A DNA stretch of 64,000 nucleotides from Urechis unicinctus (taxonomy: Eukaryota > Annelida > Polychaeta > Xenopneusta > Urechidae): contig CM067345.1 in NCBI GenBank assembly GCA_034190875.2, positions 28,090,312 through 28,154,311 on the forward strand. The letters run 5' to 3'. Of the stretch, positions 2,705 to 56,130 are shown one piece after another. The position numbers and the translations under genes are program-made. The notes under the pieces are model-generated. The model was not told the DNA's origin, searched no databases, and saw only the letters and a list, made by a program, of their open reading frames with translations. Within the stretch, counting starts at the first letter, position 1; every line of letters begins with the position of its first letter.

Positions 2705-4401
2705 ACATGTCTTCTGCGATCCAACTGTATCATAGGTGTGTATGCATATCAAAAATTCACATCAAAAGCATTGTTGCCACTTTTATAAATGAATTAACTG
2801 TAAGCAGGACATTGTTGATAGCTTTCTTGATAGAATGGTTTGTAGGTTTTAAACTATGATACAGTTGTTAAAAAAGAGAATTCTGCCTGCCTGCTGAGCT
2901 AATCTTGTTTAAATCTGAACTTAAAATGCCAGAAACTGAAATACATGCGTTGTGAAGCAGCTCTTGCATGATGGCACCTGGAGATGCCAAGTAGAACCTA
3001 GCGAACGGATAGCAAACAAATACCAAGTGGCTGTATATATTTACCAAAATGGTGGTCATCGTATCACGATTGATATATATGATGGAATTTCCTAAATTAC
3101 AGCATCATTGGAGGGCAAGGTTTTTGCGCTGTTACAGATATTCTTTTTACATGTTGTTTTCTAGATGCTTGGTTGAAGACCCAGGACGTTATAATGTCCA
3201 TGTTCCGATAAGACAAGGCACTGAAACGAAAACTTTAAAAAAATGATGAAAGGATATGACTAAGATGGATGTAGAAACAATGTTGACCTCACGATTTACT
3301 TACTGAAACAAGGCTCTAAGCGATTCAGACAAGAGTCCGAGAGGTCAAAAGAGAAAGGGAGCTTACGTACACCAATGTGCCCCCTGTTACTTTGCAGTAT
3401 GCACAGACAGGTTCAAAACATTCATAGCTCTTCCAAGATTTTACTTTAATTTAGTTCCACGAGTTTAACCTATATGTAGTTAGTTGCTAGCATGTTGTAA
3501 CTAGTACAACAGCATATTTCACCCTTGAAAATTAATGATAAGCCACTGGAATCGAGATACTAGGTGATCTAGAATCCTAGGTGATCTAACAATAAAGTGG
3601 CTATCATTCTGGTAAATGGCTGCCATTGCTGTTATAGGACAAATATGCGGAAGCCCTATAGCCATAATTCTTTCTAAGGGCATGCTATAACAGTGTGCTG
3701 AAGCTTGTGCTTGTTGCATAGTAAAATGTCATGGATGTTGATGACGTTATTTCCGGTTCAGAAAGCATCAAAATTTATCAAAATTAACTACCAATATTTC
3801 TGTGTATAACGTTTCAATCTTAAAAACAATGTTTACATTCTCTAGAAGTTTTATTCAATTGCAAACTTTCTCTGAATGCATGTAATTGTAAATAATGCAT
3901 CGTTAAATAAATTGTAGCTGGTCAATAATTTCTCGTAGCAAAAATCAGTGATATTCTTTTAATTCATAATTGACAAGCTAATTATTGTCCAATCTGTAAC
4001 CACTTGAGTGCTGAAACCACTATAAAACTTTTACAATGACAAAATATCAAAATATTCATTGTTTTCAAAGCGCGTTCAGTTGGAATTTTTTTAAGTTCGC
4101 TTGTTTTTGGTTTTGTTTGTGAACTTTTTTTGGCTGGGGATGCAAATTTGATTATTTTTTTTAAAAGGTCAGCCACAATAATGCGCATAACCCAGATTCT
4201 TTCTTTAAAATCTTGATCTTAAACTAAGGTCAAGTTCATAGAAAATGTGAACAATTCTCAGTTCTCATGGAAGGTTTTGTCATCATACTTATTCATAGTG
4301 GTTGTAAAACTTATTGCATGGTGGAAGAATGTTGCATGTACTATTGTATTGAAAAATTGGAAACTAAATTTTGAAATATCATAGAATGTGTTTGTGTTCA
4401 G
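2705..4401. other. HDAC8 upstream region; first coding exon not identified
   Basis: The first detected HDAC8 exon begins with Ala-Ser-Leu-Thr-His-Ser-Leu-Ile-Glu. In the family this follows about 35-40 N-terminal residues ending near PKR. That first exon should lie here or further upstream, beyond the satellite, but I see no convincing match with a start codon and a phase 0 donor. No other gene is visible in this stretch. Confidence 0.4.
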
Positions 4402-7400
4402 GCAAGTCTGACCCACTCTTTGATAGAGTCCTATGGGTTGCTAGATTCTATGCAACTAGTTCCTCCCTCATTGGCTAGTGATGCTGACCTCAGCACATTC
4501 CACTCGCAGGGCTTCATTGACTGTGTTAAAAGGATGAGTGGAAGAGAGGATCAGGAACGGGAAGATGAAGATGCCGAGGCATATGGGCTTGGTCAGTTAT
4601 CAGCTCATGTATATTTCAAGTATAAATTATCAGATTCTATTGATACTGCCAAGGTCATTTTATTGTACCACACAGCATTTATTTGTTTGTGTTCAGTGTA
4701 TGATTGTCCAGCATTCCCTGGGGTGTACAGCTATGCAGCCATTGTAGCTGGAGCATCTCTTAAAGCTGCGGAGGTTTTGATAGATGGGAGCGCTGATGTG
4801 GCTGTCAACTGGCCTGGAGGTTGGCATCATGCCAAGAGGTAGTGTTGTTTTGAGAATATCAATGTATATGACAACATTCTCATGCTTTTATAAGAAATTC
4901 AAAAAAGTCTACGGTACAGTGGAAATCATCTATTCTCTATGCATGGTTCTACTTGTATTACGACAGAGATGAGGCGTCTGGCTTCTGCTACTTCAATGAC
5001 CTAGTTTTAGCCATCTTGAAACTTAGGAAAAAGTATGAACGAGTTCTTTATGTGGATTTAGACCTTCATCATGGTGATGGTGGGTGAATACATAGTACTA
5101 AGTCTTCCTTTGTGTTTGTTTCTACTAGTAGAAGTTGTTTTTTTCTACATTGTACAATTTTGCTCAATATAACTGTTTGTCTTTTCTTGTGTATGCATGC
5201 TACCTGTTTCAGGTGTAGAGGATGCGTTCTGTGCTTCCCCATCAGTTATGACAGTTTCCTTCCATAAACACTCGCCTGGCTTCTTTCCAGGTGATTTCCA
5301 TTTACGAAAAAAAAACCATGAAGAGCAATAAATAGGGTATTTTTCATGTCACCTAAGTAAAGGATATTATAATTTATATTTCATCTACTGTGTGGTTAAA
5401 CATAGCTGTTCATTGCTGTTGGTGAAATTATTGTTTAATGGCTCATCGGCACTGGGTGTCAGCAATTGAGTGATTTTTTGGGGTCGTAAATGTGCAAAAT
5501 CAGCAATTTTTGTGAAACTGCTGAAGGTTGATTTATTAATAACCTTGGCCGTTAGTTTTAAGTCTTTGCCTTACAGGGTCCTTGCTTAAAGGCCTTGTTG
5601 GGTGGCTCTCGGTTGATATTAAATCAACTTACAGAGATTGGATAAGGTGGTAATATTCAACATCCTCACAAAGTATAGATATACCATGCAATCTTGTGTA
5701 TTTGTTGCACCAGTGTGTAGATAGGACCACCTTTTTGCCTGGAAAATTGTTCCAAAATTGTTATAGTAGTAAATGCATGACCATGCTATCATGTTCCCAA
5801 GCTGTAAGTGTAGGCTGAAACATGTTAAGATTGTATTAAGTCAGTGGTGACTGCCATCAGAGTCCCTCTGCTTAATGTCTTCCAAGAATGAGTTGCATGA
5901 TTGAACTGAAAATTCTTTTTTTTCATACCATAGCACTTGAATAATACCCCGTTGCTACTTAGCTGCAATGACAGACAAATGAACTACCCTGTTTACTTGT
6001 GTTAAGGTAGCAACATTTTGGACAAATTTTCAATAAACAAAGAGGGTTGTGCAACCAATACACAAGTTACTACGGTAATCAACATACAAAAGTCAGATTA
6101 TTATGACGTTGATGTGTGTGCTGATATAAAGAAACAGTAAGCTGAATATGGATAGTGTTCCTCAATGTCGACAGTCATGTTTGTCGGACAACGTTGGTTT
6201 TATAATTGCAGGTTCTGGAAGTTTGACTGACATTGGTGTTGGCAAGGGTCGCTATTACTCGGTCAATGTTCCCCTAGATGATGGCATCACTGACTCGAGC
6301 TTCTTGAAAATATTTTCCAGGTGATAAACATTCCCATTACCCTACATAAACAAAATGACCAACAGTGGTTATAAGTTTTATCCTACTTTTGGTGCAAAGA
6401 TAAACATGACTATTATGCTAGACTTGCAGTAAGTACAGTATATATTTTTTACATGAGAAAAATATATAATAGAAGGATGTTTCTCCAGAGAAATGCATAA
6501 AACTATTTGGGGTTTAGTTGTTTGACCCATACAGTTATTCAATTGTGTTATCTACTATTACCTGTTGGGGGCCCTTTGCATGTTGCATTAGTGTGATGGA
6601 GAAGGTGCGAGAAACATACGAGCCACTAGCCATCGTTTGTCAGTGTGGAGTGGATGGATTGGTAGGGGACCCATGTGCTTCATTCAATCTCACTCCTGCC
6701 TCTTTACAGCAAAGCTGTTACTGACTTGCAGAGTTGGAATATACCCTTGCTTTTAACAGGAGGAGGTTTGTTTTTGTTACTTACAGTAGCATATAACGTC
6801 ATTAAGGCACAAAGTTGTGAGGCATTTAGTTTGACTCCATAAAGCACAGATTCCTTGTTGCAGAAATGTGCAAGCACAAGCTTTTGTGATGGCCATGTAA
6901 TTATGCATAAACTCGGTTCAGATGAACAAATAGTCAGTAGTTATACCTAGTATGTCACCCAAGTTAGCAATTTTGGGTCTAACACTTCACACCTGAATAT
7001 GCCCAGGAGGATACAACTTTGTGAATGCAGCTCGCAGTTGGACAACTATTACAGCTGCTGTCACAGGACATAAAATACCTAGTGATATCCCTGAACACAA
7101 AGCATGTACAACTTATCCTTGCTCGAATCTTTGAAATAATTAAGAAATATTTTTGTGCATCAGAATTGTGCTTCTTAACTCAGCTGTTGTTTCAGTACTT
7201 TACTAAGTATGGACCAGACTATGACTTAAGTATTGCAGCTGGTAACCAACGAGATAAAAACACTTCCGTCAGTCTTGTGGAAACAATTGATGTCATTCAT
7301 GGTAGGCATGCATATTTTACTATTGACTTAATAATATATCTGTATTAGGAATAATTCATGCATCTGAGAAACCTTTTATGATTTAATATGAAGATTTCCA

Positions 7401-17796: not shown

Positions 17797-19934
17797 ATGA
17801 AGACCAAACTGCTATGTCGTAGGCAAATAAACGCCGCCAAGCACTCGACCAGCACTAACCGGCCATCTTCGGAGCTCAAATTAGGCCTAAATTTTCGTCA
17901 ACATCAAAGCGCCGAAAACAAGGACAGCAGAAATGCAACCGACGATACACCAATAGTGATGCCTGATGGTAATGAAGGTGCAAGCGGCAGTCACGAATCG
18001 GTCGGAGGAATTAAGAATCGGGACGAACCCATATATGAGAACGGACAGGGTAGCAGCCATGATGAGGTTGATATCGCCATCTCGCGCCCAAACACAGACA
18101 AAGCAAACAAATCCTGGCCAGAAGAACACAAACCACCCCTGACGCCTGAATCATCGAAGTCTGTAGAAAAGGTTACCCTTGTCGATATATTGGGGAATTT
18201 GATTGCGATTGCGAGTTATTTATTTGACGTTGGGTCGGACCTCTGGGTAGCTTACACCTACTTCATGGCTGAACATTGGTGGTGGTTTGGTTTGACTTTG
18301 AGCTTTGTTTTTGTGCCTTCGATCATTATCACCTTGTTCAGTTTGAGTTGGTATGGAGGACCACAAGGCACAACAGGAGCGAGGATCACCATTCAGATGG
18401 GTTTCACGCATTGTCTTCTTTTTCTTCCAAATTGCTCCTGTGCTAAGGTAATATTATTTATATTAATAAGCTTTTAGTGAAAAATAGTATTATTATAATA
18501 TACGTACCCAAATTGATTACAACTTTCAACAGATATCATTCGATTTGATATTTTTACAGGTACATAGATTCTATAATTTACGGTGTCCGCTCAAGGAAGG
18601 CCGTCGAGCAGGTAGAAAACCACAAAGATTGGTATTACCGGATGCTGAATGAGGACACAGACTCCACTCTCCTCCGTCTCTTTGAGTGTTTTCTTGAGGC
18701 TGCTCCACAACTCGTACTCCAGCTCTACGTCATATCAACTATTGGGCTTCAGTCGACTTGGTACATGGGTGAGTTCCCCTGCAGGAACATGTCATTGTAT
18801 TATCATTACATTAATGTCGCCATTAGACATCATGAAGGGCTAGTTAAGTGTCAATGGCTGATCCAGTTTTAGAGTTACTGTGATGATAACATGTAACAAA
18901 ATTAAACGGATGTGCCTTGGCATTTTTATTACTGACTACCTAGGAACTCTTTTCAGATGTTCCATTCATATCGAGTCATACTTGCTGGTTTCATAATTGA
19001 TATTTCTTTTGGCTGCACAGGAGCCGCCCAGTGTGTTTCCTGCTTCACTTCGCTCTTCTCCCTCTCATGGGGCATCGCCTCATACCACAAGGCCCTACGG
19101 TTCTCCACTCACATAGCCAAAATGAATTGGCCCGGCTTTATCCTACAAATCCTTTGGCGTAGCTTCACCCTAGCGTCACGTGTTCTCGCTTTGGGACTCT
19201 TCGCCTCACAGGTGCCCGGTTGGATCTTTGCAGTGGCTGTTGCCATCCACTGTTTACTCATGTGGATCTGGGTCATCATGATGCGGACTGATTTCTGTAA
19301 CAGCCGAGCCAAGGAAGCTTTGTTTAACCTGGTGCTAGCTGGGGTATATATATTCGACTATGTGAATGCCATTAAAGGTCACACGAGGCTTCGTTACCTA
19401 ATCTACTACACCACTGTTTGCATAGAAAACTGCGCAATGGCCGCCATCTGGTATTCTCTCGAATCCGCCGTCAGCAGTTGGTACATCAAATTCGCCATGG
19501 CTATGATATTGCTTGGATTATTTATTGGTATTTGTTGTCAGGTTATTTACTACAAATGCTTTCATCCTGTTAACTACTCCCCAGAGTTAACACAAATCCA
19601 GACATGTTTGCCATGGGAACAATGGGTTAATGGAGAAGACGCTAGCTCAACCACGGAAGGGGGCATAGGTACAAACACACACGGACTGAACGGTTCTCAT
19701 TTGAGTGTGTGTGATTCCCTCGACAAATGCCCCGATTTCACTGCATGTTCACACCGTGATGACACTTACATCCAAGAATCTCCCGAATGTAAGGAAAGCA
19801 GACATTCTGGCAATGTGAGCGATGAGATCGCTGATCAGTCTCTCTCTCCTGCTAATTCACCGTCGCCAACTAATTATGTCATTACAGGTGTACATAGTCA
19901 CAGCTACGATGAAGTCGATTCTACCTACCTGTAG
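17797..19934 (+). CDS. XK-related protein (XKR8/9-like; candidate caspase-activated phospholipid scramblase)
   Basis: Multi-pass membrane protein of the XK family. In this family XKR4, XKR8, XKR9 and nematode CED-8 expose phosphatidylserine in apoptotic cells after caspase cleavage. Exons: 17797-18447, 18560-18768, 19021-19934 (stop TAG). The product is 590 residues if one extra base is ignored. About 125 hydrophilic N-terminal residues precede the first membrane segment (VTLVDILGNLIAIASYLFDV), then DVGSDLW, WWFGLTL, FFQIAPVLRYIDS, LLRLFECFLEAAPQLVLQLY, a hydrophobic core to YYKCFHP, and a polar tail of about 120 residues. LRLFE plus APQL is closest to XKR8/9. DEVD occurs at residues 89-92 and 583-586, the latter followed by STYL and the stop. 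The frame breaks between 18351 and 18401: dropping one base near 18355 gives SWYEDHKAQQERGS and joins FRWVSRIVFFFFQIAPVLR correctly into exon 2. Orthology within the family is uncertain. Confidence 0.92.
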
Positions 19935-26310: not shown

Positions 26311-28720
<2,410 letters not shown>

Positions 28721-29372: not shown

Positions 29373-29712
<340 letters not shown>

Positions 29713-54859: not shown

Positions 54860-56130
54860 AATATTCCTCCATTATTTCCTCATGTGACCCCTGTGGCAAT
54901 ATATCTTCATTATGTCTTCATGTAATCCCAGTGGTTTTTCCTCCATTGAGTCTTCATTTGACAACTCTGGCAATATTCATCCACTATGTCTTCTTGTGAC
55001 CACAGTGGCAATATTCCTCCATTGAATCTTCTTGTGACCACAGTGGCAACATTCCTCCATTCAATCTTCTTGTGACCACAGTGGTAAACACCACAGTGGT
55101 ACATTCCTCCATTCTTCTTGTGACCCATTCCTCCATCAATCTTCTTTGTGTGGACCACTGTGGCAACATTCCTCCATTCAATCTTCTTGTGACCACAGTG
55201 GAAACATTCCTCCATTCAATCTTCTTGTGACCACTGTGGCAACATTCCTCCATTCAATCTTCTTGTGACCACTGTGGCAACATTCCTCCATTGAATCTTC
55301 TTGTGACCACTGTGGCAACATTCCTCCATTCAATCTTCTTGTGACCACTGTGGCAACATTCCTCCATTCAATCTTCTTGTGACCACTGTGGCATTCCTCC
55401 ACATCTTCTTGTGACCACTCCCTCCAATCTTCTTCTTCAATCTTCTTGTGACCACTGTGGCAACATTGACCACCTCCATTCAATCATTCCTTCTTGTGAC
55501 CACTGTGGCAACATTCCTCCATCTTCTTGTGACCAATCTTCCATTGAATCTTCTTGTGACCACTGTGGCAACATTCCTCCACATCTTCTTGTGACCACTG
55601 TCCCTCCATTCAATCTTCTTGTGACCACTGTGGCAACATTCCTCCATTGCATCTTCTTGTGACCACAGTGGCAATATTTCTCCATTGAATCTTCTTGTGA
55701 CCACTGTGGCAACATTCCTCCATTGAATCTTCTTGTGACCACTGTGGCAACATTCATCTTCTTGTGACCACTCCATTGAATCTTCTTGTGACCACTGTGG
55801 CAACATTCCTCCATTCAATCTTCTTGTGCAGTGACAACATGTTCCTCGACATTGAATCTTCTTGTGGACCCATTGCGTGTATTCCTCCATAATCTTCTTG
55901 TGACTATTGCAAACTTCTTGTGTGCCATTGGCATCTATCTTTCCCTCCATTCCAATCTTCTTGTGACCACTGTGGACAACATTCCTCCATTCATCTTCTT
56001 GTGACCTTGTGGCAAAGTTCATTTCTAGGAGCTATCCCTTATTATTACGCATCTTCTTGTTGACCCAAACAGTGACAATATTTCTCCATTGAATCTTCTT
56101 GTGACCACTGTGGCAACAAAATTCCTCCAT
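54860..56130. repeat. 38 bp minisatellite, about 30 units
   Basis: Tandem 38 bp units keyed by CTTCTTGTGACCACTGTGG and CAACATTCCTCCATTCAAT. The central part (55150-55830) is most uniform, and both flanks are degenerate with shortened and interrupted units. An early subset carries CCACAGTGG instead of CCACTGTGG. Since 38 is not a multiple of three, a reader passes through all three phases every 114 bases. This yields long minus-strand frames (up to 180 codons, 55480-56022) with 38-residue periodicity. There is no homology or splice context, so these are not called genes. Confidence 0.93.

Follow-up and report, generated by a model that had tools for sequence, protein, structure and literature searches.

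An XK-related gene of Urechis unicinctus with a DEVD motif in its N-terminal tail that two paralogues share

Scramblase control is placed in the N-terminal tail in the nematode, where CED-8 of C. elegans is cut in that tail, and in the C-terminal tail in vertebrates, and the motif described below touches on the question of how these modes originated. A sequence-only reading of the DNA analysed here had CED-8 activated by a caspase in its N-terminal tail. The activation half of that claim holds, since cleavage by CED-3 is reported to activate CED-8 (PMC10113483). For the vertebrate proteins XKR4, XKR8 and XKR9, a caspase cut is described as the event that starts scrambling (PMC10495444). The C-terminal tail of XKR8 is described as plugging a cytosolic groove, the cut falling at D355 with a helix (residues 372-382) lying beyond it (PMC10938166), and XKR9 is reported to lose 16 residues when it is cut (PMC8298096). 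Another member of the family, XK, is described as binding VPS13A through a cytosolic beta-strand in its second cytosolic loop (PMC9436381).

The window, a stretch of 64,000 nucleotides of the Urechis unicinctus genome (C4:28090312-28154311), carries on its + strand a three-exon gene for an XK-related protein (Table 1), with stops in frame upstream of its start ATG. The family assignment made in the sequence-only reading is borne out by all three exons, each of which matches PF09815 (E 1.6e-16, 2.5e-15 and 7.4e-49 for exons 1, 2 and 3; 60.7, 56.7 and 167 bits, the curated cut-off being 24.8); over the membrane domain the matches cover profile positions 3-80, 88-149 and 157-337 of 337. The best PDB match of every exon is XKR4, chain 9boj_B (E 8.1e-11, 6.9e-07 and 1.6e-31), as it is for the searched stretches of three other XKR loci of the same genome (L009, L011 and L013, introduced below); the only family members in the match lists are XKR4, XKR8, XKR9 and XK, and the nearness to XKR4 thus carries limited weight. 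The calcium ligands of XKR4 are given as D123, D127 and E310 (PMC10495444), and alignment finds counterparts of these ligands of TM1 and TM3 in the window protein: DVGTD of XKR4 aligns with DVGSD, which contains D144 and D148, and FLEAAPQLVLQLY of exon 2 aligns with FLESAPQLVLQLC of XKR4, so that the Glu of FLEAAPQ is the counterpart of E310. Judged by its sequence, the membrane part is unremarkable for the XK-related family and has equivalents of the XKR4 calcium-site residues, and the gene product is predicted to be a membrane protein of this family and of XKR4 type, which would scramble lipids. It is an invertebrate-type relation of the proteins through which dying cells display the "eat-me" lipid.

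Table 1. Features of the XK-related gene, in positions of the window
Feature	Positions	Strand	Remarks
Exon 1	17797..18447	+	Start ATG at 17797; N-terminal tail (up to residue ~123), the first two membrane segments and the loop that contains the frame break
N-terminal DEVD codons	18061..18072	+	Residues 89-92; common to L009 and L010
DEVDIAISRP, ten-residue conserved motif (DEVD-Phi-x-Phi-x-R-P)	18061..18090	+	Found by three-way 12-mer comparison
Frame-break stretch	18355..18385	+	31 nt = ten codons + one base
Intron 1	18448..18559	+	GT...AG; an intron at the same place in L009
Exon 2	18560..18768	+	PF09815 E 2.5e-15; holds FLEAAPQLVLQLY, with the counterpart of the XKR4 calcium-site Glu
Intron 2	18769..19020	+	GT...AG; an intron at the same place in L009
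Exon 3	19021..19934	+	Other membrane segments, C-terminal tail of ~120 residues, stop TAG 19932-19934
C-terminal DEVD codons	19908..19919	+	Residues 583-586 in read-through numbering
C-terminal STYL	19920..19931	+	Class I PDZ-ligand-like, by sequence

The window holds other features as well. Histone deacetylase exons lie upstream of the XKR gene on the + strand (4375-4842 and ~4986-5083), presumably of an HDAC8-like enzyme, the stretch 4375-4842 matching PF00850 with an E of 3.5e-14; Pfam comparison of eight other frames of the window gave one histone deacetylase match above the cut-off and one RSN1_TM match below it. Scans of the window for tRNA genes and with Rfam were empty, and tblastn found no XKR-like stretch within it at E < 0.1 besides the gene's own exons. 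There is a tandem array at 435-1753 (period 183 bases) and a second one at 54860-56005 (period ~38 bases), the latter with long, repetitive open frames on the - strand, and there are long AT microsatellites at 28524-28720 and 29443-29712.

Searching the whole genome (1,190,315,542 bases in 926 contigs) gave 18 exon-level XKR matches, which group as seven loci, the window gene and L009-L014. The genome thus has at least seven XKR loci, and the six besides the window gene were all read, L009 and L010 as full gene models and L011-L014 as unspliced open frames. L009 and L010 are neighbours at C4:13.29 Mb. The C-terminal tail of L009 has 382 residues (sense 4809-6508), L009 and the window protein have IQTCLPWE(Q/K)W in common directly after the last membrane segment, and the donor of L010 exon 1 is GC, not GT (sense 2465). 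The membrane domains are identical at 242/331 residues between the window protein and L009, at 189/328 between the window protein and L010 and at 183/328 between L009 and L010, and gapped alignment of the N-terminal tails of the same pairs gives 29/118, 26/96 and 27/113 identities (24-27%). At the fourfold sites of exon 2 and of the membrane-domain portion of exon 3 the agreement is, again in that order, 31/81, 13/59 and 18/54, compared with 0.27 for random bases. These sites are evidently near saturation, and agreement so close to random indicates that the split of the three genes is ancient. As for relatives outside the animals, where little was to be expected, the exon 3 protein gave four pattern matches in bacterial and archaeal contigs, none of them confirmed, and no match in viral contigs; alignment A1 gave 210 pattern matches in bacterial and archaeal contigs, likewise with none confirmed.

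The N-terminal tails of these three genes share the ten-residue motif of Table 1, which with its surroundings reads SHDEVDIAISRP in the window protein, GEDEVDMALIRP in L009 and CYDEVDLDLTRP in L010, D-E-V-D and R-P being kept in 3/3. In an unanchored scan of the tails the best ungapped three-way 12-mer is this same block, with six identities; 300 shuffles gave best blocks with two identities (14 times), three (265) or four (21), and never above four. The codons of the motif differ at synonymous positions between the three genes. Because fourfold sites are near saturation between them, this conservation, which is that of paralogues within one genome, argues that the N-terminal motif is under selection, within a tail that otherwise evolves fast, and is not a relic of recent duplication. 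Among sense-strand open frames 60 residues or longer at the six other loci, only those of L009 and L010 contain DEVD, at the same place, and the motif was not found in the sense-strand open frames of L011-L014, which confines it to a single three-gene clade. The more distant L011 has DSVD-G, a weak point in favour of a caspase-type site, in an N-tail frame that is not continuous with the membrane part and that holds other DxxD strings, so that one of this form is no surprise. L010 ends FHPTKIIK-stop, five residues past the conserved FHP, and so has no C-terminal tail while keeping the N-terminal motif.

The sequence-only reading was right that DEVD stands in both tails, at residues 89-92 and, in read-through numbering, at 583-586. 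It preferred the C-terminal site, with Ser after the Asp, and doubted the N-terminal one, with Ile there, and the paralogues, in which conservation of the two was compared, turn that preference round: the N-terminal motif is kept in both of the nearest, L009 and L010, and the C-terminal DEVD in 0/6. Shuffled tails contained DEVD in 190 of 200,000 N-terminal tails, in 571 of 200,000 C-terminal tails and in both in 0 of 200,000, counts that are not clean probabilities, because the motif was picked once it had been noticed; conservation therefore tests it better.

The window protein ends SHSYDEVDSTYL-stop, and the DEVD in this end was found in none of the six other XKR loci (L009-L014), as read in their C-terminal tails or open frames. 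The C-terminal tail of L009 has only DPDD and DPED, and that of L011 is without any DxxD. Among the loci examined, the C-terminal DEVD is probably private to the window gene. Measured against the class I PDZ consensus, the last frames of three of the seven loci end like PDZ ligands, STYL in the window gene, ESYV in L009 and QTTV in L011; the others end TKIIK (L010), YTETE (L012), PTVFC (L013) and PSTS (L014). Taking residue frequencies from the two L011 tails and the N-terminal tail of L014, the chance of three such ends in seven is ~4e-4. A cut after the C-terminal DEVD would free four residues, the PDZ-ligand-like end and nothing else; the XKR8/XKR9 type of placement, a conserved site whose cutting releases a plug-sized segment, is not found here. 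It is conceivable, if unlikely, that DEVD-STYL is nonetheless a second physiological caspase site, the cutting of which would sever a PDZ ligand and free the scramblase from a scaffold, no plug being involved. The chance value just given speaks for this, as does a C-terminal tail that is predicted, at low confidence, to be without structure, and DEVD followed by Ser is described as a caspase-3/7 optimum (PMC13071377). The four residues freed compare poorly with the 16 reported for XKR9 (PMC8298096). The lack of DEVD in the L009 and L011 tails, of any C-terminal tail in L010 and of DEVD in the open frames of L012-L014 weighs further against such a site. The proposal of the sequence-only reading that one protein unites both modes depends on a C-terminal site that the paralogues do not keep and on the broken frame of the assembled gene, described below.

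The C-terminal tail can also be read as carrying YDEV, matched by N-tail YENG, as phosphotyrosine or endocytic motifs, the DEVD there being a matter of chance. YDEV fits the YxxPhi and SH2 patterns, and the expectation of a chance DEVD in the C-terminal tail, 0.003, is small and was also worked out post hoc. The Tyr before the N-terminal motif is not kept (the three genes have His, Glu and Tyr), and we hold this explanation to be quite unlikely.

As assembled, the window gene has no continuous open frame and its two tails do not lie in one frame. In exon 1 a single base breaks the frame, at a place that encodes the loop joining membrane segments 2 and 3, the bounds being a Tyr codon that ends at 18354 and Ser-Pro-Phe codons that start at 18386. 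Frame 0 is open to the end of the exon; the family segment that runs on into YIDSIIYG of exon 2, RWVSRIVFFFFQIAPVLR, sits in the next frame, and SPFRWVSRIVFFFFQIAPVLR, the window equivalent of the L009 segment SPLRWISRVVFLFFQIAPVLR, is likewise one frame over. The whole of exon 1 is read in a single frame in L009 and L010. Without the stop, the coding length is 651 + 209 + 911 = 1771 nt, or 590 codons and one base, so that the numbering 583-586 of the C-terminal DEVD is valid only if one base is passed over. A break in a T-run near 18420 had been entertained and was dropped, comparison with the paralogues placing it within the stretch given in Table 1. The cause may lie in the assembly, in a null allele or in a real lesion; the intact splice sites and conserved motifs speak rather for a faulty assembly or for something that happened recently. 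In L011 the N-tail frame and the first membrane segment also lie in different frames (sense 2866-3402 and 3314-3790), with no obvious intron; this is possibly a second frame break, of the kind to be expected if the assembly is prone to indels.

The break raises the question of whether the window copy is a pseudogene, with tails that would be uninformative on function. When 448 bases of exon 1 were searched as DNA against the genome, only the window (100%) and L009 (73%) matched, which leaves no second copy for comparison. Outside the break the coding sequence is open; its splice sites are undamaged, it retains the motif and the counterparts of the calcium-site residues, and the possible break in L011 is what such an assembly would lead one to expect. 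We therefore consider a pseudogene improbable; L009 and L010, moreover, share the N-terminal motif independently of the window copy.

With DEVD kept in the N-terminal tail and not in the C-terminal one, these sequences suggest control through the N-terminal tail. In the reading that we think most probable, and to which we would give slightly less than an even chance, a caspase cut after the Asp of the N-terminal DEVD would release a restraint exerted by that tail and permit scrambling. The long, poorly conserved N-terminal tail would restrain the XKR protein in living cells, with DEVD-Phi-x-Phi-x-R-P taking part in the restraint; in apoptosis, executioner caspases would cut after the Asp and remove the tail, and its removal would permit lipid scrambling. 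The protein would then be controlled from its N-terminal side, in the manner of CED-8, and not by release of a C-terminal plug as in XKR8 and XKR9. The C-terminal DEVD, if it is cut at all, would cost the protein its PDZ-ligand-like end and not a plug. Caspase-family (PF00656) sequence is plentiful in the genome, with at least 51 exon-level matches; there is a cluster of it at C10:17.56-18.54 Mb.

The residues that follow the Asp do not sit easily with a caspase site pure and simple. For caspase-3/7 the optimum is described as DEVD with Gly, Ala or Ser as the next residue (PMC13071377). P4-P1 are exactly DEVD in the window gene, L009 and L010, and P1' is Ile, Met or Leu across them, outside the preferred type, which counts against the caspase reading. 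Conservation runs on for six residues past the Asp, to R-P, in 3/3 genes; Phi-x-Phi-x-R-P would have no reason to be kept if the site served caspases alone, and the motif may serve binding only. Hence the main rival: the motif would be a docking motif that is never cut, its acidic start, V-x-Phi-x-Phi and R-P forming a short strand-like element for pairing with a binding partner or with the cytosolic face of the XKR protein itself, and DEVD would be a coincidence of the acidic half. That the conservation extends beyond the Asp and that P1' is bulky in all three genes both favour docking, and so does the strand-mediated binding of VPS13A described for the relative XK (PMC9436381). An acidic motif at near-saturated divergence should show exchanges of D and E, however, and D-E-V-D is exact in 3/3; moreover, XKR4, XKR8 and XKR9 of this same family are described as being switched on by caspases (PMC10495444). 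We regard docking without cutting as a tentative alternative, to be taken seriously.

Caspase cutting and docking could also be combined. With its bulky P1' and the Arg-Pro that all three genes keep, the motif may be something beyond a caspase site, perhaps one for binding that a caspase cut abolishes: the N-terminal tail would be docked on a partner or on the cytosolic face, keeping the scramblase shut, and with the scissile bond inside the docking motif one cut would both remove the tail and destroy its docking site. This more specific proposal is doubtful, and exon 3 was modelled (with four rows) at a mean pLDDT of 43.7 and a pTM of 0.25, too poorly to speak to tail docking. If true, caspase-erasable docking would be a further design of XKR activation, beside the release of a C-terminal plug and the XRCC4-assisted mode. 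In any case, a motif kept in the N-terminal tails of three anciently split XKR genes offers a defined residue to mutate and a pattern for other invertebrate XKR genes. Among the literature matches listed, as judged by titles and the starts of abstracts, there is no XKR protein with DEVD in both tails or with a comparable N-terminal motif, a weak negative that covers the top-ranked matches.

The known systems can now be set beside this locus. As in CED-8, the caspase-type site is in the N-terminal tail, and it is conserved there, DEVD being present in 3/3 members of the clade, all paralogues. XK/XKR2 belongs to the same family and binds its partner VPS13A through a strand; it differs in being described as without a C-terminal caspase site (PMC9436381). 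Like XKR4 (PDB 9boj; PF09815), the window protein has some 100 residues of N-terminal tail ahead of its first membrane segment, the match starting from chain residue 105. XKR4, in contrast, is described as being cut at its C-terminus and as needing an XRCC4 fragment (PMC10495444), whereas the conserved DEVD of the window protein is in the N-terminal tail. With XKR8 (PDB 7dce) and XKR9 (7p14) it shares the membrane domain family and a caspase-type site in the C-terminal tail; unlike the plug release of those two proteins, cutting at that site would free four residues, at a DEVD not found in the paralogues.
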